A DNA stretch of 33,879 nt from Desulfobacterales bacterium (GTDB lineage: Bacteria; Desulfobacterota; Desulfobacteria; Desulfobacterales; JARGFK01). The notes beneath the pieces are model-generated. The model worked only from the letters and a program-made list of their open reading frames with translations, searched no databases and was not told where the DNA came from. A program made the translations under genes and the position numbers. Shown here piece after piece: positions 4,869 through 16,949 of this stretch. How positions within the stretch are numbered: position 1 is the stretch's first letter; each line of letters begins with the position of its first letter. The DNA is taken from positions 1-33,879 of the forward strand of contig JARGFK010000046.1 of NCBI GenBank assembly GCA_029211065.1, given 5' to 3'.

Positions 4869-6347
4869 TTATCGTCCATTGAGCGACTCCATGATTTGCT
4901 TGAAACTCTCAACACCGGCCTCAAGGTTTTCAATGATTTCTTCAGCCAGCACGTCCGGGTCGGGGAGGTTATCGAGATCGGCCAGGCTTTTGTCTCTGAT
5001 CCAGAAGATGTCCAGGCTGGTCTTGTCGCGGGCAATGATCTCATCATAGGAAAATTTGCGCCACCTGCCGTCGGGGTTGTCTTCCGCCCAGGTTTCGCTG
5101 CGCGTGTGCCTGTTTTGCGGGTTGTAGCAGGCGATGAAATCCTTCAGTTCGTCATAGGTCATCTGGTTTTTCTTTTTGGTAAAATGAATGTTTGTCCTGA
5201 AGTCATAAAACCAGATCTCCTTGGTCCAGGGGTGCTTGGCGGCAGGTTTGTTTTCGAAAAAGATCACATTGGCCTTGACCCCCTGGGCGTAAAATATGCC
5301 GGTGGGCAGCCTGAGAATGGTGTGAAGATCGGTATTTTGAAGAAGCTTTTGTCGAACCGTTTCACCGGCGCCCCCTTCAAACAGCACATTGTCCGGAACG
5401 ACCACGGCCGCTTGCCCGGTGGTTTTGAGCATGGTGCGGACATGCTGGACAAAATTGAGCTGCTTGTTGGAAGTGGTGGCCCAGAAATCCTGCCGGTTGT
5501 ATCGCAGATCCTCCTTTTCCTGTTTGCCCTCGCCGTTGGTGATCGTGATGCTGCTTTTCTTGCCGAAGGGTGGATTGGTCAGGACATAGTCGTACCGGTC
5601 GCCGGTATCGGCTATCAGGGAATCATTGGGTGAAATGGCGGATTCACCGGTAATTTCGCCGATATTGTGCAGAAACATGTTCATCAAGGCCAGGCGGCGG
5701 GCATTGGCCACGATTTCGTTGCCGTAAAAGGTTTGATTCTTCAAAAAGAATTTCTGGCCCTTGTCCAGGTTGGAATGACTGATTAAAAAGTCATAGGCCG
5801 CCAGGAAAAAACCGCCGGTGCCGCAGGCCGGATCGGCAATGGTTTTACTGGGTTCGGGCCGGATGCATTCCACCATGGCCCGGATCAGCGCTCGCGGCGT
5901 AAAATACTGACCGGCGCCGCTTTTCACGTCTTCGGCGTTTTTTTCAAGCAGGCCCTCGTAGATATCCCCCTTGACGTCCGCGCCCATCATGACCCAGTTT
6001 TCCGCATCGATCATGTGGATGATCTTAAAAAGCTTGGCCGGGTCCTGGATCTGGTTCTGGGATTTAACGAAAATCTGGCCGATCATCCCTTTCTGCTGTC
6101 CCAGCGCCCTGAGCAGCTTGATGTAATGGGATTCAAGATCCGCTCCCTTTCTGTTTTTCAGACTGTCCCACGTATATTCAGACGGAATGCCGACGTCCTT
6201 TTTATAAATTTTACCGTATTCATCGGCCATCTTGAGAAACAGCAGGTAGGTGAGCTGCTCCAGGTAATCGCCGTAACTGACGCCGTCATCCCGCAGGGTA
6301 TGGCAGAAACTCCAGACTTTTGAAACAATGCTTGCAGTGTCGTTCAT
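4869..6347 (-). CDS. hsdM: Type I restriction-modification DNA methyltransferase subunit M
   Basis: A 492-residue N6-adenine methyltransferase subunit. The N-terminal HsdM helical domain (residues 1-140, with YGDYLEQLTYLLFLKMADE) precedes the catalytic domain. That domain carries the SAM-binding motif DPACGTGGF at about 172-180 and the catalytic NPPF at about 257-260. The reading frame is intact to a normal C-terminus, with no frameshift or internal stop. HsdM normally methylates only with a specificity subunit HsdS, and none is visible in the window: the gene ends 58 bases from the convergent dynamin-like gene. Upstream lies a pseudogene fragment whose stop codon sits one base before this ATG, and then an hsdR fragment. 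It may work with an HsdS encoded elsewhere or be silent. Confidence 0.93.
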   Translation of the reverse strand: MNDTASIVSKVWSFCHTLRDDGVSYGDYLEQLTYLLFLKMADEYGKIYKKDVGIPSEYTWDSLKNRKGADLESHYIKLLRALGQQKGMIGQIFVKSQNQIQDPAKLFKIIHMIDAENWVMMGADVKGDIYEGLLEKNAEDVKSGAGQYFTPRALIRAMVECIRPEPSKTIADPACGTGGFFLAAYDFLISHSNLDKGQKFFLKNQTFYGNEIVANARRLALMNMFLHNIGEITGESAISPNDSLIADTGDRYDYVLTNPPFGKKSSITITNGEGKQEKEDLRYNRQDFWATTSNKQLNFVQHVRTMLKTTGQAAVVVPDNVLFEGGAGETVRQKLLQNTDLHTILRLPTGIFYAQGVKANVIFFENKPAAKHPWTKEIWFYDFRTNIHFTKKKNQMTYDELKDFIACYNPQNRHTRSETWAEDNPDGRWRKFSYDEIIARDKTSLDIFWIRDKSLADLDNLPDPDVLAEEIIENLEAGVESFKQIMESLNGR

Positions 6348-6348
6348 T

Positions 6349-6720
6349 TTATTTTTTCTCTTTGACTGAATAGTACTTCTGGTTCGGGCTTGAGGGTTTA
6401 TCCGGAATAGTTGGTTTAAGAACGTTTTCTTCCAGTAAAGGTCGAAGTATAAATTTCCTAAAATATTTATTATCAGTTATTTTTATATGGGCCTGTATTT
6501 CCTTGCTGCTTCGTGGTGTTTGACAAAATTTACGTATTTGCACCACCCTTTCAGCTTGGGGGGTAGCTTGGGGGGTAACTTGCACGGTATCTTGTGCGGT
6601 GACTTGCGCGGTAGCTTCCGAGGCAAGCGGAACGATGCACTTGAAAATATCTTCCTCGATCAGTTTAGGGTCTTTACCCCCGGTGTAATGGCGGCAGTAC
6701 TTGAAAAGCTTTCTTATAAT
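6349..6720 (-). pseudogene. C-terminal fragment of a COG2865-like ATP-binding / winged-helix protein
   Basis: Only the tail of a larger protein remains. Read on the minus strand from about 6720, the frame gives IIRKLFKYCRHYTPGGKDP, then LIEEDIFKCIVPL. A Gln/Thr/Val-rich linker with short repeats (QVT, VTPQATPQ) follows, and then a winged-helix-like end (TPRSSKEIQAHIK, KYFRKFILRPLL, TIPDKPSSPNQKYY). I recognise this order as the C-terminal end of AlbA_2/COG2865-type ATP-binding regulators, which are often found inside type I R-M loci. The N-terminal AlbA_2 and ATPase parts are missing; at that point the DNA switches to hsdR sequence in another frame. A GTG at 6585 could start a 78-residue peptide, but I regard the whole as a deletion remnant. 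Assignment is from memory of the family pattern. Confidence 0.65.
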
Positions 6721-7118
6721 GTTTTGGGGTGGTGAAATGAAAAGACCGGCCTTGCGCGGGGTTTGGGGTCCCGCAGATCGGTATAACGTGTCAATATGCC
6801 GGTGCTTTCATAAACAAAGGGTAGGGACCGGTTGTCTGCAAACCATTTCAATTTGCTCTGGGCATAAAACTCAGCCTGCTGTTCATTAACGCTCAGGCGG
6901 TGGCCTTCCGCTTCTTTTTTGGCTTCAATCACACCGATGGGTTCACGATCCACAAACAGGACGTAATCGGCGGGACCTGCATCGGTCTGATATTCCCGAA
7001 CCGCTAACCCCGGACCGAGGCTCCAGTTGATTGCATTCTTGTCAACGACTGCCCAGCCCGACCGTTCAAGCATTTTGTCGATGTTGTCTCTTGCTTTTTG
7101 TTCGGGGGTTCTGTTCAT
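6714..7118 (-). pseudogene. hsdR: Truncated type I restriction enzyme subunit R (N-terminal nuclease part)
   Basis: A 134-codon frame matching the start of HsdR, the restriction and translocation subunit of type I systems (normally about 800-1,000 residues). It begins with TPEQKARDNIDKML. It keeps the PD-(D/E)xK nuclease core, with Asp51 in GPADYVLFVD and Glu65/Lys67 in GVIEAKKE, then LPFVYESTG and DPKPRARPVFSFH. It stops at TTA-TAA just after HHPKTL, where intact HsdR proteins continue into the DEAD-type helicase motor. The sequence then continues as the C-terminal scrap of a different protein in another frame, which points to a deletion that removed the HsdR motor. Without the motor, restriction in the usual manner is not expected. 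Whether the fragment is translated is unknown. Confidence 0.82.
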
Positions 7119-7842: not shown

Positions 7843-8676
7843 TCAATCCGATTTTTTCAACACATCGATCATGCTATAAACTTTCCCCCGGCTGTCCGCC
7901 GATAACTTTTGATACAGAAAGGCCACCGCATCCAGGGTACCAAAAGCATAAATCTCCCGGCCGTTGACATTGTGGCTGAACTGAAAGCGGACGGTTTTAT
8001 CCAGCGAGTCGAGGGTATAGGTGTGCCAGGCGTGGCCGCCGATATATTCCTGCGGGATTCCCCATTGTTCTTGCTGGGTTTTTGGGTCGCGTTCCTTAAT
8101 GATGCGGTCTTCGGAAAAAGGCGTGCCCAGGGCGTTGAAATACCGCACCATCGCTTTGGCGGTGCCGCTGGTGTCGGCCTTTCCCTGTTGGTGGCTTTCC
8201 CGGATTTGGAGCGTATATCCTTCAAAGAGCCCCGCAAAGTTGGTGGCGGCATATTCCATCATGGCCTGAAACCCGACAATCTGCTTGGCCATATTGGGTG
8301 CGATGACAGCGGAAACGGTTGACGCAACAACAAGTTTTTCGAGACGGTTGTAATCCCCCCCGGTGGTGCCCATTACAAAGGGGAGCCCGTGGCGGCAGTA
8401 AAACTCGGCGTTGGCGAAAACAGCGGACGGATGCGTGAAATCCACTGAAATGAAATTGCCTTCCGATGCTTTAATCGACTCGATTGCTTCATCACGGGCG
8501 TCCGGCCGGATCAGGCCGACGGTGGTTTCAGCGACAGCCTGTTCGTCGGCGGTTATTTCAGGACCGGTGAGCGAATGGGCCACCAGTTGAAACCTTTTAT
8601 CGTTGAGGACATGGCCGGCTACTACCTGGGCCACATTACCGGGGATCCCGTTTACCATCACTTTAATTGAGGGCAT
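7843..8676 (-). CDS. dapB: 4-hydroxy-tetrahydrodipicolinate reductase, plant-type
   Basis: A 277-residue NAD(P)H-dependent reductase of the diaminopimelate/lysine pathway, acting in the cytoplasm on the product of DapA. The nucleotide-binding loop is NGIPGN (9-14). FVMGTTGGD (100-108) and the catalytic/substrate region ESHQQGKADTSGTAK (160-174) are both present, and the C-terminus reads MIDVLKKSD. The pattern (VDFTHPS, PNMAKQIVGFQ, GHAWHTYTL, the MIDVL ending) follows the plant DapB type as I remember the Arabidopsis enzyme, and not the usual bacterial form with its GxxGRMG loop. AAAGGAG lies at good spacing before the ATG. It sits downstream of the MurU-AmgK fusion on the same strand, both serving peptidoglycan precursor supply. 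A 224-base gap with operator-like repeats suggests its own promoter. Confidence 0.88.
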   Translation of the reverse strand: MPSIKVMVNGIPGNVAQVVAGHVLNDKRFQLVAHSLTGPEITADEQAVAETTVGLIRPDARDEAIESIKASEGNFISVDFTHPSAVFANAEFYCRHGLPFVMGTTGGDYNRLEKLVVASTVSAVIAPNMAKQIVGFQAMMEYAATNFAGLFEGYTLQIRESHQQGKADTSGTAKAMVRYFNALGTPFSEDRIIKERDPKTQQEQWGIPQEYIGGHAWHTYTLDSLDKTVRFQFSHNVNGREIYAFGTLDAVAFLYQKLSADSRGKVYSMIDVLKKSD

Positions 8677-8900: not shown

Positions 8901-10580
8901 TTAGATGTTCTCCACGATTTTTCGCAGCAGCGGAAATTCTTCCGGAACCATACTGAGAGTATGCTTTAACGTTTGTACGGCCGGCGGGATGAAAGCCTCA
9001 AAATAGGTTTTGCCCTTTTGCCGGCTCAGGTATCCGAATGCGCCCAGCATCTGAAGATTCCGGGTAAGGGTGCAATAGCGGTAACCTTTATAAAATGCGT
9101 CCCGCGAAATCCCGCTGCCCGCCGTTATCTGCTCGAAGCAGTAGCTCAGAAGTTTGTCCTGGATCGAGCGCGGGAGATCTACGTAAGGATCGATCATCAG
9201 GGAGGCCAGATCGTACTGAACCGGTCCGAAGCGGCCACCCTGAAAATCAATCAGATAATACCGATTGTTTTTCACCATGATGTTGCGGGATTGCAGGTCC
9301 CGGTGCATCAACCCGGTGACGGCATACTGCAGGGCGTTGTCGGCCAGGGCTGAGAATTCATCTGCCAAATCCGTAAAAGATACGCTGCGGTTCAGATAAC
9401 CGTTTAAAAAAGTGTCCACAAAGTAGCGGCACTCTTTTTCAAGAATCAGGGTGCGGTTGTAGTCCGAAGTCTGATACGTCCATCCGGGATCAAAGCCGAC
9501 GGCGCCTTTAATCGACAGCTTTACCAGGATATCGATGACCGCCTGGTAACAGTCGCAGATCGCATCGCTGTCGTGCAGGCTGCGGACGACGCTCTGCAGG
9601 CTGACGTCGCCGAGATCTTCCAGAAAGACCAGACCGCTGAAGGCGTCGGACAGAAAAATTTCAGGTACGGGAATCCCGCTTTCGAACAAATGCCGGCCGA
9701 TGATAACAAAGGCATCCACCTCGGATGGCGCATCCTGTTTTCGGATGCCGTGATCGGCCAGTATCAGGGTGCGGGGGCCGGCGGACACTCGATACCATTT
9801 CCGGTCTGAACCGTCGCCTGCCAAGGGGGAATAATCAACCGGGTGGGAATTGTTCTTTCCAAAGGCGCGTTGAAAGGCCCGGGGGGCCATTCGGGAGAGA
9901 ACGGTCTGCCGGTATCGCTCCGGGGTGCCGATATCCTTCCAGGACTGGGCCGGCGCAAGAAAGGCTTTCAATTTTCGGTGGGAGGACAACAGTTTTTTAT
10001 ACATATCGATGCTGCCTGAAAAACAGTTGTCCGGAATGAGAGCGAGCACTTCGGGGTCAAGGACCTGGATGCCGGTAAAGGTGAGGGGACTGTTCTTTTG
10101 CGGCGACGATATGCCCCTCGAATTTTCAAACGCAATCACAAAACCGTCCGGGTCGACCTGAACCGTATTGAACTCCGGATCGTCGCAAAGCACCAGCGTG
10201 GCCGGATAGGGATGCTGCAAATGTAACTCATAGACGGCCTTTAGGGAGATGTCCGTAAAGATATCGCTGTTGATGACCATAAAGGGGTTGTCGTCCCAGA
10301 AATCAGCGGCATTTTTAATGGCGCCGCCGGTTCCCAGGATTTGGGATTCGTAGCGGGTGGATACCGGAATCCGATAATTCTGCGAGGCAATGAAGGTTTC
10401 AATCTTTTGGGGCAAATGGTGGGTGTTGACGATAATCTCCCGGCAGCCGGCTTTATGCAAATTACAGATGATGAAGTCCAACAGCGGACGGCCGTCTATG
10501 GGAAATAAACACTTGGGGGTAATATTCGTATAGGGTTGCAGCCGTGTGCCGAAGCCGGCAGCCAGGATCAATGCTTTCAT
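8901..10580 (-). CDS. Fused MurU-like nucleotidyltransferase and AmgK-like anomeric sugar kinase
   Basis: A 559-residue two-domain protein. Residues 1-240 are a sugar-1-phosphate nucleotidyltransferase with LAAGFGTRL and TPKCLFP at the N-terminus, LGTGGA (82-87), NSD (104-106) and WKDIGTPERY near the domain end; the closest pattern I know is MurU. Residues about 250-559 are an aminoglycoside-phosphotransferase-fold kinase. It has GDGSDRKWYR, FLEDLGD, the catalytic loop MHRDLQSRN (about 424-432) and the Mg-binding IDFQGGRFGP, as in AmgK. In Pseudomonas putida AmgK phosphorylates MurNAc (and GlcNAc) at C1 and separate MurU makes UDP-MurNAc. Here both steps would lie in one chain, in reverse order of the reaction. 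The gene follows plsB by 60 bases and is probably in its operon. The sugar specificity is inferred; another hexosamine is possible. Confidence 0.85.
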   Translation of the reverse strand: MKALILAAGFGTRLQPYTNITPKCLFPIDGRPLLDFIICNLHKAGCREIIVNTHHLPQKIETFIASQNYRIPVSTRYESQILGTGGAIKNAADFWDDNPFMVINSDIFTDISLKAVYELHLQHPYPATLVLCDDPEFNTVQVDPDGFVIAFENSRGISSPQKNSPLTFTGIQVLDPEVLALIPDNCFSGSIDMYKKLLSSHRKLKAFLAPAQSWKDIGTPERYRQTVLSRMAPRAFQRAFGKNNSHPVDYSPLAGDGSDRKWYRVSAGPRTLILADHGIRKQDAPSEVDAFVIIGRHLFESGIPVPEIFLSDAFSGLVFLEDLGDVSLQSVVRSLHDSDAICDCYQAVIDILVKLSIKGAVGFDPGWTYQTSDYNRTLILEKECRYFVDTFLNGYLNRSVSFTDLADEFSALADNALQYAVTGLMHRDLQSRNIMVKNNRYYLIDFQGGRFGPVQYDLASLMIDPYVDLPRSIQDKLLSYCFEQITAGSGISRDAFYKGYRYCTLTRNLQMLGAFGYLSRQKGKTYFEAFIPPAVQTLKHTLSMVPEEFPLLRKIVENI

Positions 10581-10640: not shown

Positions 10641-13259
10641 CTAAAAAGACAGGTACCCCAGGAATCGCTGGATGTTTTGTTCATAGTGGCTTATTTTTTT
10701 TGTGCTGGCGGAACCTTTGACATTATGGGCGATGAAATAATTTATGGCATTGTCGTAGTTGACCTTTGAGAGCGCCTCTTTGAGGGTTATCTCCTCTCTT
10801 TTGTACATCCGTAACCCGCGCGACTGGATTTTTTTGATCCGTTCCTTGGGGCTGTTGGCATTGGCCTGGTAACGTCGGAAATAATTCAGGACAATCCAGT
10901 AGGATTCAAAATAGGTTTTTAAAAAGTGCGCAAAAAATTTCAACTTTCGGAGACCTATCGATGTGACATTGTAAGTGTCCGGCAGGGTGGGATGCGGCAC
11001 CAGAATAGCGTCGTCGATAAAGGCCTTTAAGGTTTTACGGATGACATATTCGGGAGGGTGGTCGACGTCGTATGCAAATTCATTTTGAAAAAAATCCCGC
11101 AGAAAATTATAGTCAGCATAAAGGTCCACGGCTGAAAACTGAAACGCTTCTTTTGCGATAATGGCCAATGCGGTATAGGCCGCCGGAATAAAAAAAGAGA
11201 TACAGTTGTTTTTATAGTATTCCAGCTGGGCCCTTTTATTAATCTGGAGCATCAAGATGGTTTCACCCGACACGCTTTGTCTGTTCAGTTCAATCCGGTC
11301 AATCAGTTTTTGTTGAACGTAACTCTCCAACACCTGATCGACGGCGCGGGCCGGATCCACCAGGAGCGTGTCAGCCAGGAGAGCTTTTTGAGCGTTTAAA
11401 TGCGCCATGAGGGTTTCAATATGAAACATCATGTGCTTGAAAGTAATCCGTTTGCGGGAACAGTTTAAAATCGCACTGGCGGTCAGGGCGTGGGGGGTGA
11501 CCACCGTCACTTTATTGATGGAATTGATAATCCTGAATCCCAGGTAGCGGCAGAGCGTATTTAGCTCTTTCGGCTGTAATGCGGCAATCGATGTGTTGTT
11601 CTGTTCCAGGCGTTCTTTGATGGAAATGGGTTCGTGAAATTTGATATAGATTCTGCCATAACGCGTCTTTAAAAACTTCCTGGCCTGAATGACCTGGGAA
11701 AAACTTTCCGGTTTTTTCTGGCCGCCTTCGATTTCGTCCAAATAGGAGCCTTCCTCCAGCACCCGATCATAACCGATGTAGATCGGGACAAAAACCATAT
11801 CCTGGCAGGCCCCGTTTTTATATGCATCCAGCAGGATCGAGAGCAACCCGAGTTTTGGCATGATCAATTTGCCGGTCCGGCTGCGACCGCCCTCGATGAA
11901 CAGTTCAATATTAAAACCTTCTTCAAGAAGTTTTTTGATATATTCCGCAAAAACCTTTGAATACAGGACCGCCCCCCCAAAGGTTCTTCTGATAAAAAAT
12001 GCGCCGCCGCCCCTGAAAAAAGGGCCGATCGGCCAGAAAGAGAGGTTTTTACCGGCGGCTACATGGGGGCAGGGCATATTGTTGAGATACATGACATAGG
12101 AGAGAATCAGATAATCGATATGACTTTTATGGCAGGGAATCAGGATTAGCGGGCCCTTCTGGTACATGCTTTTGAGCCGGTTGAGTTCGTCCTTGTCAAC
12201 CGAAACCCCTTCAAACATGGTGTTGGTGATCCATCCCACCAGGGAGGCGGCAAACCTGATAATGGCCGGGCTGTATGCGGCCGCAATTTCGTCGATACAA
12301 TCTTCAGCTTCCTTTTGGACCTGATGAATCGGAACCTTCCTTTTTTCAGAATATTGCGCCATGTACTGTTGAAGGCTTTCATTCGTCAGGATATTTTCTT
12401 TAAATTCAATGCGCGACTTTAAAACCGGTCCGGTTATGATCTGGCGGTGGCGGTTGATCTGGAGCAGTAAGTTTCGGCGAAGTACCAGGGTCTGATGTTC
12501 AATGGTGCGATCCGTATTTTCCGGACTGGATATAAATGTTTTGATGTTGATCGGTTCGGAAATTTCCACAAACACATTGCCGGGATCTTTAAACAGGGTA
12601 ATGAGCCTTCGAATTCTGCCCGGATTCGTTTCCGTTCCGAAAAGCACATCGGTAAGGCTTAAAATCGTCCGCTGCGGGTTTTTACTGAAAAACATCAACT
12701 GCGGCACCAGCAGGATCGGCCGGTTGGTGGTTTGCTGCATCCTGATCAGAAATTGAAGGGGGTCGGTTTCTTTTTTTACAAATCGGCGATAAAACCCTTT
12801 TTCCTCGATGAGCGAGAGCAAAGCGGAGCGCCCCCTTAAAAGTTCCTTGCGGAAATAATCATTTTGATAAGGGTTCAGCCTGTTTCTATGGACAAGAAAA
12901 TTGTCGAGGTGGGCCAGTAGAATTTTTAACAGCCGAGAGACCGGCTGCCACAAAATCACCCGGTAATCAAAACCGATTTGGGGAAACGGTAACTTTAAAA
13001 GCTGATATCGGACAAAGTAAAACAGAAACTCAAAAAGACTTTTGTTTCGGATCACATATACGACAATGGCGTCTTCTTCTATTTTTTTCAGGGTCGGGAT
13101 CTGGGTGTCGTCCAGCGTTATCCCGGAATAAAAAAGCTTCAAAATGTAAAAAGAAAAAGCGCCGATTTTCTGCGGGAGATAGCACAAATAATGATTGTAT
13201 GTCCCCTGGAGATAGGTTGTCAGTCCGTTTCTAAAATTTTTTTTAATTTTTTTAAACAT
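10641..13259 (-). CDS. plsB: Glycerol-3-phosphate 1-O-acyltransferase
   Basis: An 872-residue membrane-associated acyltransferase that makes 1-acyl-glycerol-3-phosphate, the first step of phospholipid synthesis. The acyltransferase blocks are all visible: block I HKSHIDYL (about 376-383, the HX4D catalytic pair), block II GGGAFFIRR, block III FIEGGRSRTGK and block IV VFVPIYIGYD. The long N-terminal domain (1-340) and C-terminal half match the PlsB type and not short PlsC proteins. It is somewhat longer than the E. coli enzyme (about 807). The ATG at 13259 has only a weak ribosome site (GGA). A possible promoter lies at 13371-13399. The fused kinase/nucleotidyltransferase follows closely on the same strand. 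Confidence 0.93.
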   Translation of the reverse strand: MFKKIKKNFRNGLTTYLQGTYNHYLCYLPQKIGAFSFYILKLFYSGITLDDTQIPTLKKIEEDAIVVYVIRNKSLFEFLFYFVRYQLLKLPFPQIGFDYRVILWQPVSRLLKILLAHLDNFLVHRNRLNPYQNDYFRKELLRGRSALLSLIEEKGFYRRFVKKETDPLQFLIRMQQTTNRPILLVPQLMFFSKNPQRTILSLTDVLFGTETNPGRIRRLITLFKDPGNVFVEISEPINIKTFISSPENTDRTIEHQTLVLRRNLLLQINRHRQIITGPVLKSRIEFKENILTNESLQQYMAQYSEKRKVPIHQVQKEAEDCIDEIAAAYSPAIIRFAASLVGWITNTMFEGVSVDKDELNRLKSMYQKGPLILIPCHKSHIDYLILSYVMYLNNMPCPHVAAGKNLSFWPIGPFFRGGGAFFIRRTFGGAVLYSKVFAEYIKKLLEEGFNIELFIEGGRSRTGKLIMPKLGLLSILLDAYKNGACQDMVFVPIYIGYDRVLEEGSYLDEIEGGQKKPESFSQVIQARKFLKTRYGRIYIKFHEPISIKERLEQNNTSIAALQPKELNTLCRYLGFRIINSINKVTVVTPHALTASAILNCSRKRITFKHMMFHIETLMAHLNAQKALLADTLLVDPARAVDQVLESYVQQKLIDRIELNRQSVSGETILMLQINKRAQLEYYKNNCISFFIPAAYTALAIIAKEAFQFSAVDLYADYNFLRDFFQNEFAYDVDHPPEYVIRKTLKAFIDDAILVPHPTLPDTYNVTSIGLRKLKFFAHFLKTYFESYWIVLNYFRRYQANANSPKERIKKIQSRGLRMYKREEITLKEALSKVNYDNAINYFIAHNVKGSASTKKISHYEQNIQRFLGYLSF

Positions 13260-13399: not shown

Positions 13400-13642
13400 A
13401 CTAACAAAAATAAAAATTCAGTTCAATCTTTATTTGTATTGCGGCTAATTATGGATAACCGGGTGTTTGAAAAATAATCTTGCGTTCCAGTATTTGTTAT
13501 GTTAGCTGTTTAATTAGAGATAATCAAGAAGCACGCAAGGATCGGATTGGTTTGCTCCGCTCGTGCTGTTTTTCAATTTGCTGCCTTTTGGGAACATCTT
13601 TTTAGGCACAAACCAAAATAGAGATAAAGGAGGATGTTTTTT

Positions 13643-13927
13643 ATGAAGACATTAATTGGTGGGGCGATAGCAGCAGTTTTGGGCATCATTTGCCTTTCGG
13701 TGTGGTTTAAAGAGTTTTTACAGATTTTAGCCGGCGCTATCCCCGCAATGCTTCTGTTGGGGGGCGGCCTGGCGGTTTACCTGGGATTGGACGAACTGAA
13801 AGATAATTGGAAAAAAGAGGATGTCTCTGTGGACAGCACGGCTCAGGCTGAAGATGTTGAAAAATACAAAAAAGAAATCGACGATCTCAAGCAAGAAATT
13901 GACGCTTTAAAAAGCGAAAAAGCATAA
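13643..13927 (+). CDS. Small two-helix membrane protein with C-terminal coiled coil
   Basis: A 94-residue protein that I cannot assign to a named family. Two hydrophobic segments (about residues 3-20, TLIGGAIAAVLGIICLSV, and 26-46, around AGAIPAMLLLGGGLAVYLG) are joined by a short turn. A charged linker follows, and then a heptad-like Lys/Glu/Asp/Leu tail (YKKEIDDLKQEIDALKSEK) that should form a coiled coil in the cytoplasm. The start at 13643 is preferred over the ATG at 13634, because AAAGGAGG abuts the earlier ATG with no spacing but sits 9 bases from the later one. It stands alone on the plus strand between two minus-strand blocks and ends at a strong hairpin. A role in envelope organisation is only a guess. 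Confidence 0.72.
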   Translation: MKTLIGGAIAAVLGIICLSVWFKEFLQILAGAIPAMLLLGGGLAVYLGLDELKDNWKKEDVSVDSTAQAEDVEKYKKEIDDLKQEIDALKSEKA

Positions 13928-13990: not shown

Positions 13991-14683
13991 TTAGAATTCA
14001 TTATTACTGCGCAAAGCAGTAGTTGCCAGAAAGTCCGCCCGCTCATTTTCGATCACACCGCTGTGTCCTTTAACTTTTATAAGCTTGATATCACTAAATG
14101 CCGCAATCAGCTCCTGAATGGATTTGATCAGATTCTGGTTTTTCTTTGCCTTCCAACCACGCACCAAGACGCCTTGGGCGTAGCTGCTGTCCGTAAAAAT
14201 TCGTACAGGCAGATCGGTCTTTTTGATTTCCAACAGGCCGATTCTAATGGCTTCAAGTTCGGCGATGTTATTGGTCGCTATTCCGATCGGTTTGGATATT
14301 TCCTTTGTGTGGGTTCCATAACGCATGACAACTCCGATTCCGGATGGACCGGGGTTGCCGGAGGAAGCCCCATCTGTAAATAGACAGACAACATCTTTTT
14401 CGATAGCCGACGCGTAATCTTCCAGGGATTTGTTTTTTGTAACTTTTATTTTCGGCTGCCCCCCGGTTGAAACCTTTCCGGATGGATTCTTCTTGGGAGA
14501 TGGTTCGGATTCAATCGGAACAACCCCCCCGGAATGGACCCAGTACTCATGATCCTGATCCAGCTGGTATTTAATCAAAACCTTGTTATTTTTAATAATA
14601 GGATTTCCCTCGGAATCCGTTGCCAACCAGACCTTGTTGGTTTTAAAACGCATGCGTTTCCAGGAAGGTATCGTCTGCTCCAA
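13991..14683 (-). CDS. rnhA: Ribonuclease HI with an extra N-terminal domain
   Basis: A 230-residue enzyme that cleaves the RNA strand of RNA-DNA hybrids. The RNase H fold occupies residues about 97-225 and keeps the catalytic set Asp104 (LFTDGASSGNPG), Glu144 (AELEAI), Asp165 (FTDSSYA) and Asp217 (NERADF), plus His207 (KGHSG). The first 55 residues (KVWLATDSEGNPII, QDHEYWVHSGGV) form a separate small domain, joined by a Pro/Ser/Lys linker. It is not the usual hybrid-binding domain, which starts with a YxVxxGRxxG motif, and I do not recognise it. The apparent start is TTG at 14683 with AAGGGGA upstream; an ATG at 14653 (residue 11) is the alternative. The gene follows namZ by 25 bases, so the two are probably co-transcribed. 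Confidence 0.85.
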   Translation of the reverse strand: MEQTIPSWKRMRFKTNKVWLATDSEGNPIIKNNKVLIKYQLDQDHEYWVHSGGVVPIESEPSPKKNPSGKVSTGGQPKIKVTKNKSLEDYASAIEKDVVCLFTDGASSGNPGPSGIGVVMRYGTHTKEISKPIGIATNNIAELEAIRIGLLEIKKTDLPVRIFTDSSYAQGVLVRGWKAKKNQNLIKSIQELIAAFSDIKLIKVKGHSGVIENERADFLATTALRSNNEF

Positions 14684-14708: not shown

Positions 14709-15884
14709 TTAATGGTACAGATAGCAGGATCTACTCATTTTCTCAAATGCCAGCAGCTCATTCTCCCACGATTTTTCGATGGCATCAATATCTTCGAAAT
14801 TTTCGATGCGCTGCCGAATCATCCGGTTGCCGATAATTAAATCGATGGGCAGTCTTTCGAATTCATATTCATAGGGTGGCGGCTTCCACTGAAATTCGTT
14901 GGCGTGCAGGCGTTTAATGGCCTGCAGGAACTTGAGGGTGGTTCGATACGGCCGGTACAGATCCGGATTTGTTATGTGAAGCTGAAAACCGCGACACAAC
15001 CTGCCCTGCCATTTATTGGCGGTGGGTTCGAATGCCACCGGTCTCAGGAAGACGCCGGTATCTGAGGCTTCCGCAAGTTCTTTCGACAGCTTTTCAATGT
15101 CGATAAAGGGGGCTCCGAAAAATTCAAACGGCTGGGTTGTTCCCCGCCCTTCAGAGACATTGGTGCCTTCCCATATGACCTGTCCGGGATATACCATGGC
15201 TGAAACCGGCGAGGGTAGATTGGGCGACGGTGCAACCCAGGGAAGACCGGTATCCCTAAAATACATGGCCCTTTTCCAGCCCTTCATGGGGATGATGTCA
15301 AGGTCGCAGTCAATACCATAAGCTTGTTTGAACAACAGCGCCAGTTCTCCCATGGTCATCCCGTGCCGCATGGGTATCCCATATCGACCCACAAATGAAG
15401 CGCAATCCGGCGACAGGCAGTTTCCTTCCAGGGTGACGCCGTTTACCGGATTGGGGCGATCGAGTATGACCACTTTTACCCCCCAGTTTTTCGCGGCCTC
15501 CATCGCGTAAGAAAGGGTGGTTGAAAACGTATACACCCGTGTGCCGGCATCCTGCAAGTCTACCAGGAGGATATCAATCTGCTTAAACATGTTTTCCGTG
15601 GGCCGGCGTGTTTGGCCGTAAAGGCTGAAAATCGGAATGCCTGAGACCGGATCGACCATGTCGGCAGACTCGATCATATTGTCCTGTTTTTCAGCAAAGA
15701 AGCCATGCTGGGGCGCAAACAAAGCCTTTAGCTGCCCCGGGAAAACTTGCCCGATCAACTCACGGGCATGTCGGAAGCTACGGTCAACAGAGGCGGGATT
15801 GCTCAAAAGGCCCAGGCATTGTCCATTCATCCAAGGCGGCGGGGATGCGATCAAGGCCTCAAGGCCGGTTTTTACGATAGTCAT
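14709..15884 (-). CDS. namZ: DUF1343 / NamZ-type exo-beta-N-acetylmuramidase
   Basis: A 391-residue DUF1343 protein. Bacillus subtilis NamZ (YbbC) is the characterised member and releases MurNAc from the non-reducing end of peptidoglycan fragments. Family marks in order are LGLLSNPASVD, LFAPQHGFFAE, LLVDLQDAGTRVYTF, VVILDRPNPVNG, RYGIPMRHGMTMGEL, WEGTNVSEGRGTTQPFE and LCRGFQLHI. Length is typical of the mature protein. No signal peptide is evident at the N-terminus (MTIVKTGLEALIASPP), so unlike secreted homologues it would act in the cytoplasm on imported fragments, unless the true start lies elsewhere. The ribosome site is weak (TTGGA). It precedes rnhA in a short operon. Together with the MurU-AmgK fusion about 4 kb away it suggests MurNAc salvage. 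Confidence 0.85.
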   Translation of the reverse strand: MTIVKTGLEALIASPPPWMNGQCLGLLSNPASVDRSFRHARELIGQVFPGQLKALFAPQHGFFAEKQDNMIESADMVDPVSGIPIFSLYGQTRRPTENMFKQIDILLVDLQDAGTRVYTFSTTLSYAMEAAKNWGVKVVILDRPNPVNGVTLEGNCLSPDCASFVGRYGIPMRHGMTMGELALLFKQAYGIDCDLDIIPMKGWKRAMYFRDTGLPWVAPSPNLPSPVSAMVYPGQVIWEGTNVSEGRGTTQPFEFFGAPFIDIEKLSKELAEASDTGVFLRPVAFEPTANKWQGRLCRGFQLHITNPDLYRPYRTTLKFLQAIKRLHANEFQWKPPPYEYEFERLPIDLIIGNRMIRQRIENFEDIDAIEKSWENELLAFEKMSRSCYLYH

Positions 15885-16127
15885 TTACGATATCCAAGGC
15901 GGTTGATTTATGATTCTTGATTGAAGTGTCCTCGCGTCACCTTCAGCCTATTTGTTTAAGAATGTTTAACACATCAATTTACATTTCAAAAGTGAAAAAA
16001 CGGTTCTTGTTCCTTCACTGGCGCCCTTGGCCCTTTGAATCCTACCAGAATTGTAAGCTTACCAGAAGAAGTTCTGAAAACGTACCATGAAAATCCTCAC
16101 GGTAACAAAATAATTGCCTTAAATTGC

Positions 16128-16156
16128 TTGACACAGGAATTAATTAAAATTACAAA
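16128..16156 (+). promoter_or_regulatory. Promoter of the MinD/CobQ-like ATPase gene
   Basis: TTGACA (16128-16133) is a perfect -35 box. After 17 bases comes TACAAA (16151-16156, 4 of 6). Transcription would start near 16163. This lies inside the longest possible reading frame (from 16035), which argues that the real gene starts later, at 16236. The promoter may drive the whole downstream oxidoreductase cluster. Confidence 0.55.
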
Positions 16157-16235
16157 ACAAATTTATGTTTTTAGTCAATATCACGATGCTTTTAAACCGT
16201 TCCGGCGTTGTATTCTATATTCGGGGAAAAATTTT

Positions 16236-16949
16236 ATGGAGATCAATTTGACCGGCATTGTCGGGATTGTGGGCAATTACGGCAGCGGAAAAACGGAGGT
16301 TTCAATCAACCTGGCGGTCAGCAGAAAGCGGGCCGGTGTGGACGTTCGCATTGCCGACCTGGATCTGGTCAACCCCTATTTTCGCACCCGCGAAGCCAAT
16401 GCATCGCTGAAAGATCATGGGATTGACGTGGTGCTTCCCGACAAGGAATACCTCCAGGCGGATTTGCCCATCGTGAGCCCGGCGATTGCCGGATTGATTC
16501 GAAACCCGGCGCAGTTGACCCTGCTGGACATTGGCGGCGATGATGCCGGCGCTACCGTTCTGTCAAGCCTGGCAGATCACCTCCGGACCCAGAAGGTAAG
16601 CCTGCTCCAGGTGGTGAACCCGCACCGTCCCAATACCGATTCGATTGCAGGCTGCCTGAAAATAAAGGCGGAGATTGAAAAGGCGGCAAGGCTGCCTGTC
16701 ACCGGCCTGATCGGCAATGCCAATTTGATCGATGAGACAACCGTGGACGTTATTTATGAGGGGTATGAATTTGCGAATGAGCTGGCAATAGAAAGCGGTT
16801 TGCCCCTTGAATTCATTACGGTATCCACCGGATTGCTGCCAAAAATTGACATGGAGCGGTTCAACTGCCCGGTATTGGTTTTGGAAAGACAGCTGGTGCC
16901 CCCCTGGAAGAAAGCGTTCCGGTTGGGGGTAAAGAATTATGCCGTTTAA
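16236..16949 (+). CDS. MinD/CobQ-like P-loop ATPase next to a 2-oxoacid oxidoreductase operon
   Basis: A 237-residue P-loop NTPase of the MinD/ParA/CobQ group. The Walker A motif is GNYGSGKT (13-20). DLDLVNPYFRTRE is the switch-like region typical of SIMIBI-class proteins, and LLDIGGDDAG matches Walker B. The start at 16236 is chosen because GGGGA lies 9 bases upstream and a promoter precedes it; the preceding in-frame codons (16035-16235) read as low-complexity, AT-rich sequence. No membrane segment is seen. It lies 192 bases before the ferredoxin gene of the oxidoreductase operon on the same strand and may help in cofactor loading or assembly, but this is an inference from position only. 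I cannot name a characterised orthologue. Confidence 0.75.
   Translation: MEINLTGIVGIVGNYGSGKTEVSINLAVSRKRAGVDVRIADLDLVNPYFRTREANASLKDHGIDVVLPDKEYLQADLPIVSPAIAGLIRNPAQLTLLDIGGDDAGATVLSSLADHLRTQKVSLLQVVNPHRPNTDSIAGCLKIKAEIEKAARLPVTGLIGNANLIDETTVDVIYEGYEFANELAIESGLPLEFITVSTGLLPKIDMERFNCPVLVLERQLVPPWKKAFRLGVKNYAV

Follow-up and report, generated by a model that had tools for sequence, protein, structure and literature searches.

A fused MurU-like and AmgK-like protein in Desulfobacterales as a candidate enzyme of a variant MurNAc salvage route

The fused gene and its surroundings

The stretch of DNA analysed here (the window, 33,879 nucleotides of contig JARGFK010000046.1 from a Desulfobacterales bacterium) carries an open reading frame that starts with ATG, runs over 559 aa without an internal stop and joins a nucleotidyltransferase domain to an APH-fold kinase domain (Table 1). 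The initial annotation had the limits of this frame exactly right and gave no strand, which is the minus strand. In a Pfam search, NTP_transferase was placed at residues 2–225 (E 7e-23) and APH (PF01636) at residues 250–464 (E 1e-16), both above their gathering scores and separated by a linker of about 25 residues, so that the two domains proposed for this protein were indeed found in one chain.

Table 1. Features of the window around the fused gene
Feature	Position	Strand	Basis
DapB, dihydrodipicolinate reductase (diaminopimelate/lysine route), conserved downstream neighbour	7843..8676	-	TIGR02130 above cut-off; 17 loci
Gene of the nucleotidyltransferase/APH kinase fusion (559 aa), a putative MurNAc kinase and MurNAc-1-P uridylyltransferase in one protein	8901..10580	-	ORF, Pfam, NCBIfam, homologues
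AmgK-like APH-fold anomeric kinase domain, residues 250-557	8910..9833	-	Pfam APH, NCBIfam AmgK NF045759
MurU-like nucleotidyltransferase domain, residues 1-225	9906..10580	-	Pfam NTP_transferase, NCBIfam MurU NF045761
PlsB-like glycerol-3-phosphate acyltransferase, separated from the fusion by 60 bp on its upstream side; conserved	10641..13259	-	
RNase HI-like protein, N-terminal extension of ~98 residues, 25 bp downstream of namZ	13991..14683	-	
NamZ homologue (GH171-type exo-N-acetylmuramidase)	14709..15884	-	NamZ_N, NamZ_C, orthologue N-termini, motif

The catalytic motifs claimed for the two halves, LAAGFGTRL and NSD in the first and MHRDLQSRN and IDFQGGRFGP in the second, were all present in the translation. 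Across 21 aligned fusions, G9, G11, R13, K23, N52, E78, N104, D106 and D216 are invariant in the nucleotidyltransferase half, and the fusion carries both the LAAGxGTR motif of MurU and the equivalents of its metal and UTP residues (K23, N52, D106, D216). In the kinase half, H426-R-D428, N433 and D445-F-Q447 are invariant, the motifs HRDxQSxN and DFQ being kept in all 21 sequences, and the fusion has the APH fold with the HxDxxxxN and DxQ motifs over the whole domain, as in AmgK. N52 corresponds to a nucleotide-contact residue in PpMurU (PMC6981941); it was rejected as a MurU-specific signature, since Asn is also found there in a nucleotidyltransferase paralogue that the genome encodes within a heptose-type cluster. 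A structure model of the fusion predicted from the single sequence reached a pLDDT of 38, too low to bear on active-site distance or channelling.

About 53 of the 58 genomes of the order that were searched, each representing a different family, encode a full-length fusion of 40–60% identity, which rules out a chance reading frame or an assembly artefact. The remaining five (G005, G035, G038, G054 and G011) gave no fused homologue or only weak paralogues. Among named genome records, the only match was a 57% identical protein in a Deltaproteobacteria bacterium MAG.

Within the order, the genes follow the conserved arrangement NamZ–(RNase HI)–PlsB–fusion–DapB, and the presence in it of PlsB and RNase HI, neither of which is a recycling gene, counts against a recycling function. 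In the window, namZ lies 4.1 kb upstream of the fusion on the same strand. The namZ–RNase HI pair is separated from plsB by a 731-bp gap that holds a small ORF on the opposite strand, and namZ and the fusion are therefore probably not co-transcribed.

Several other features of the region were observed. The RNase HI with an N-terminal extension adjoins namZ in many relatives. An ORF of 97 aa between RNase HI and PlsB (13634-13927, plus strand) is conserved in 14 loci and another, divergent from namZ (16035-16949, plus strand), in 8 loci, both without a Pfam match; the homologue of the former in locus L059 has the appearance of a small membrane protein. On the other side of the fusion, an HsdM-like methylase (4869-7118, minus strand) is accompanied only by a piece of a type I restriction subunit (HSDR_N, 134 aa), and the arrangement resembles a decayed restriction system.

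Relationships of the two domains

Both domains were scored against all 18,950 NCBIfam models. For the nucleotidyltransferase domain, the MurU model NF045761 came first with 125.9 bits, followed by mannose-1-P GTase (97.2 bits) and HddC (74.5 bits), while GlmU reached 46 bits. For the kinase domain, the two AmgK models came first with 92.8 and 72.5 bits and the next model scored 25.4 bits; the match to NF045759 spans model positions 26-321 of 324. All 21 fusions match both MurU models and both AmgK models. As a control, the nucleotidyltransferase paralogue from the heptose-type cluster of the same genome had MurU only in sixth place, with 67.9 bits, so the ranking does discriminate. The initial reading of the halves as MurU-like and AmgK-like thus agrees with the top-ranked model of each and with the recycling context found in several classes, and a check for better matches to another sugar pathway among all NCBIfam models returned none. 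However, the scores stay below the NCBI equivalog cut-offs, both for MurU (125.9 against 250 bits for NF045761, 83.9 against 370 for NF045697) and for AmgK (90.5–92.8 against 550 bits for NF045759, 72.5 against 500 for NF045698). The domains are therefore distant relatives of the characterised Pseudomonas-type enzymes, outside formal membership of these families.

It could also be proposed that the fusion serves to make another nucleotide sugar, such as a GDP-/UDP-hexose or heptose for envelope glycans, and that its resemblance to MurU and AmgK is confined to the superfamily level. NTP_transferase domains are promiscuous, and both the scores of mannose-1-P GTase and HddC and the missed equivalog cut-offs would fit such a function. 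In a single-sequence search, the closest PDB entry to the nucleotidyltransferase domain was 4y7t, P. putida MurU. A profile of the 21 fusions gave 8x7s, named as a UTP–glucose-1-phosphate uridylyltransferase, as its best match, in favour of another sugar. We nevertheless regard another sugar as improbable, because the kinase half has substantial matches to AmgK models only, the same genome holds a separate heptose-type cluster (HddA-like, GmhA-like and a nucleotidyltransferase of its own), genes for Mpl, LdcA, NagZ-type GH3, Amidase_2, NamZ and AmpG lie near the homologues in several classes, and NamZ co-occurs with the pair of activities. Two specific identities were rejected: heptose (HddA/HddC), on account of the separate heptose-type cluster and the different model ranking, and choline/phosphocholine (LicC/LicA), for which neither Pfam nor NCBIfam gave a match to a choline-kinase family.

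A recycling enzyme acting chiefly on GlcNAc (GlcNAc to GlcNAc-1-P to UDP-GlcNAc), with MurNAc as a side substrate, seems likewise improbable. Pseudomonas AmgK also phosphorylates GlcNAc, according to the name of its NCBIfam model, and the NagZ-type GH3, which releases GlcNAc, is encoded in the genome. On the other hand, the nucleotidyltransferase half fits MurU better than GlmU, and the linked genes (NamZ, Mpl and LdcA) encode proteins whose substrates are muramyl products or the peptides of these.

Other forms of the pair and their neighbourhoods

In the rest of the phylum (297 genomes), the two domains are usually found as adjacent separate genes. The nucleotidyltransferase there mostly measures about 300–350 aa and exceeds the domain in the window's fusion by 70–120 residues. 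Two genomes (loci L109 and L110) hold a different fusion of 662–686 aa, which retains a stretch of about 70–120 residues between the domains, and locus L088 holds a third form of 562 aa. Apparent fused frames of 646–677 aa were rejected, since the loci checked held two genes side by side instead. A tree of 51 kinase domains, built by maximum likelihood, has well-supported branches that force three changes between the fused and the separate state. Therefore, the fusion probably arose more than once, the kinase tree leaving gain and loss undistinguished, and such repeated changes suggest repeated selection for keeping both activities together.

In several other classes, the neighbours of these homologues are genes of peptidoglycan recycling. 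Loci L112, L113 and L115 share the order GH3 (NagZ type)–NamZ–nucleotidyltransferase–kinase, with GH3 assigned by Pfam in the latter two and by eye in the first. L114 has, in a row, an Amidase_2–GH3 fusion, NamZ, a GHMP kinase-like gene, Mpl, nucleotidyltransferase, kinase and LdcA, while NamZ, Mpl, LdcA, GH3 and the kinase occur together in L120. The order nucleotidyltransferase–kinase–LdcA–Mpl was found in L081 and L082, the Mpl of L081 scoring 411 bits, above its curated cut-off. In L109 and L110, NamZ adjoins the fused nucleotidyltransferase/kinase and a convergent AmpG lies on the other side; the AmpG genes of genomes G227 and G073 are above the curated cut-off. No recycling genes were found in the neighbourhoods of the unfused kinase in L070, L072 and L076. 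As judged from gene context, these arrangements support a role of the fusion family in peptidoglycan recycling.

Individual loci show further particularities. The Amidase_2 and GH3 domains of L114 (2011-3609, plus strand) form a single AmpD-like and NagZ-like protein, another fusion of recycling enzymes, and the gene between NamZ and Mpl in the same cluster (5319-6950, plus strand) encodes a galactokinase-like GHMP kinase. In L109 (8300-10587, minus strand), genes for a Peptidase C26 and an amidohydrolase immediately precede namZ and the second fusion type, and their products perhaps act on the released peptides.

A putative salvage route and its relation to known systems

The window's genome encodes an AmpG permease (498 bits, cut-off 350) and a GH3 candidate of NagZ length (348-aa frame), and 24 of 30 relatives have an AmpG that exceeds the curated cut-off. 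AnmK and MurQ were absent from the window's genome and above cut-off in none of the 58 genomes of the order, while control genomes were positive for both; compared with the Pseudomonas-type pathway, the order thus lacks the expected AnmK and shares the absence of the MurQ etherase. MurA was found in the window's genome. The initial proposal of a one-gene route to UDP-MurNAc would therefore hold as salvage, in line with the domain ranking and the gene context, but not as a replacement of de novo synthesis; the channelling between the two sites and the fosfomycin bypass that it also invoked are conjectural.

NamZ is present in 53 of the 58 genomes of the order. Three genomes (G005, G035 and G054) lack both NamZ and the fusion, which exceeds chance expectation (Fisher p 0.003, a value that overstates the association among related genomes). 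In one of them, G005, neither AmpG nor GH3 is present either, although the genome is 98% complete, which would fit a loss of the entire route. Outside the order, NamZ was found in 105 of 121 genomes with the pair (a match with an E-value of at most 1e-40), as against 48 of the 164 genomes without it; at the family level, the safer count since the genomes are not phylogenetically independent and their co-occurrence p-values overstate the strength, the numbers are 36 of 40 and 10 of 46. Conversely, AnmK was found in 1 of the 121 genomes with the pair compared with 27 of the 164 without. Six of the seven genomes with both NamZ and AnmK hold a long NamZ (open frame of 682–816 aa), so that short NamZ occurs in only 1 of 28 AnmK genomes (Fisher p 1e-8, again overstated by kinship). 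Of 86 genomes with AmpG above the cut-off and without AnmK, 70 have NamZ. Across the 297 genomes, AnmK is nearly mutually exclusive with both NamZ and the kinase/nucleotidyltransferase pair. Since NamZ and AnmK are so seldom found together, NamZ becomes the candidate for the use of anhydroMurNAc in bacteria that have AmpG and no AnmK.

In our opinion, the fusion is probably a MurNAc kinase/MurNAc-1-P uridylyltransferase of a variant anabolic salvage pathway, in which a cytosolic NamZ supplies MurNAc in place of AnmK and MupP. Given the absence of AnmK, the route would run through AmpG, NagZ, NamZ and the fused protein, without AnmK or MurQ. AmpG would import GlcNAc-anhydroMurNAc(-peptide), NagZ and an amidase would trim the imported fragments, and the neighbouring NamZ, devoid of a signal peptide, would produce free MurNAc in the cytosol. 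The C-terminal APH-fold kinase would then phosphorylate free MurNAc, and possibly GlcNAc, at C1 with ATP, and the N-terminal MurU-like domain would convert MurNAc-1-phosphate and UTP into UDP-MurNAc, to be charged by Mpl or MurC. The recycled sugar would thereby bypass GlmM/GlmU/MurA/MurB. No MurNAc-6-phosphate would arise, and MupP would hence be dispensable. We infer the substrates, the order of reactions, the cytosolic role of NamZ and the dispensability of MupP, and the weakest link of the proposed route is the conversion of anhydroMurNAc to MurNAc.

The NamZ of the window has both family domains above cut-off (NamZ_N 267.5 bits, NamZ_C 171.6 bits), and the solved homologue 4k05 aligns to it over about 390 residues. 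Judging by eye from orthologue N-termini, the NamZ proteins of the order begin directly at the domain and have no apparent signal peptide. Where the solved structures 4k05 and 4jja have the motif PEHG, the window's protein has PQHG. Of 42 distinct short NamZ, in a sample chosen mostly from pair-bearing genomes, 37 have PQHG, and in most of these Q(D/A)NM comes next. The other five have PEHG; two of these are long forms cut short, and the complete ones come from G121 (with AnmK), G319 and G154, all three with only weak matches to the pair. The association of PQHG with the presence of the pair, in a sample biased in this way, is a lead. As a separate observation, the long PEHG NamZ of loci L125, L127, L129, L130, L132 and L133 have a large N-terminal part that looks, by eye, like a serine beta-lactamase-type domain, and genomes G136 and G267 contain both a long and a short NamZ.

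In the anhydro bond, MurNAc is joined by a beta-glycosidic linkage to its own O6, so that a beta-N-acetylmuramidase could in principle hydrolyse it, which would explain the replacement of AnmK by NamZ. We tentatively suggest, as a possibility about which we are rather doubtful, that the PQHG-type NamZ opens the 1,6-anhydro bond of anhydroMurNAc, completing an AmpG–NagZ–NamZ–fusion route without AnmK, MurNAc-6-phosphate or MupP that would be the main one in much of the phylum. Alternatively, with a probability that we put at about one half, the fusion salvages MurNAc while the cytosolic NamZ is canonical and cleaves imported MurNAc-GlcNAc or similar fragments, anhydroMurNAc being lost or processed in some other way. 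This reading is a rival to the opening of the anhydro bond, and leaves the identity of the fusion untouched. A canonical NamZ would be in line with the secreted enzyme of B. subtilis, which frees MurNAc from non-reducing ends, and we know of no NamZ demonstrated to open the anhydro bond. It fits less well with the frequency of AmpG among the relatives, as classic AmpG (E. coli) imports anhydro-disaccharides, with the exclusion between AnmK and short NamZ, expected of proteins doing the same job, and with the change in a motif conserved in both solved structures.

In the literature searched, which left several central papers of the field outside its coverage, we found no report of a natural single-chain AmgK–MurU or of a route with NamZ replacing AnmK and MupP. 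With regard to NamZ, passages of one report describe the enzyme as extracellular and as releasing monosaccharides (PMC13204101). The protein of the window shares both domains with NamZ (GH171) of Bacillus subtilis and with the Bacteroides-type 4k05 and 4jja, and differs in its N-terminus without apparent signal peptide, in PQHG with Q(D/A)NM for PEHG, and in its linkage to MurU/AmgK-type genes.

Passages of a study of Tannerella forsythia (PMC7670621) describe a similar gene set: AmgK/MurU, AmpG, NamZ1/NamZ2 (the latter from the title of a reference) and no predicted AnmK. This bacterium uses anhydroMurNAc by a route that the authors call unexplored; unlike the case presented here, it is a MurNAc auxotroph without MurA/MurB, it also has a MurK/MurQ route, and these passages mention no fusion. 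The Desulfobacterales proteins could make testable how bacteria with AmpG and without AnmK use anhydroMurNAc, which those passages leave unexplained. In Caulobacter crescentus, AmgK and MurU (CCNA_03649/03650), with only 30-37% identity to the P. aeruginosa proteins, nevertheless recycle MurNAc in vivo (PMC13046382), so that distant homologues can serve this function. Likewise, the two genes are neighbours there, by their consecutive locus numbers, and recycling is of the AmpG type, but the genes are separate and both AnmK and MupP are present (PMC13046382), AnmK having also been detected in our Caulobacter control genome.

The closest comparison is with Pseudomonas putida and P. aeruginosa, in which AmgK and MurU perform anabolic MurNAc salvage together with AnmK and MupP (PMC5371407, PMC5371409). 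A kinase and a uridylyltransferase are common to both, each domain of the fusion having its best profile match there and the catalytic residues being conserved. The two proteins of Pseudomonas are, however, found here as one chain with the uridylyltransferase first, scoring below the equivalog cut-offs, in an order that has NamZ instead of AnmK. If the fusion acts as proposed, anabolic MurNAc salvage would extend to a large bacterial group with its two final enzymes in one chain, and a single natural enzyme leading from MurNAc to UDP-MurNAc would suit cell-wall labelling in laboratory E. coli, for which two genes are now used (PMC13041923). Both reactions are already known, and the single-chain form and the replacement of AnmK/MupP by NamZ would represent a variant of the Pseudomonas-type pathway.
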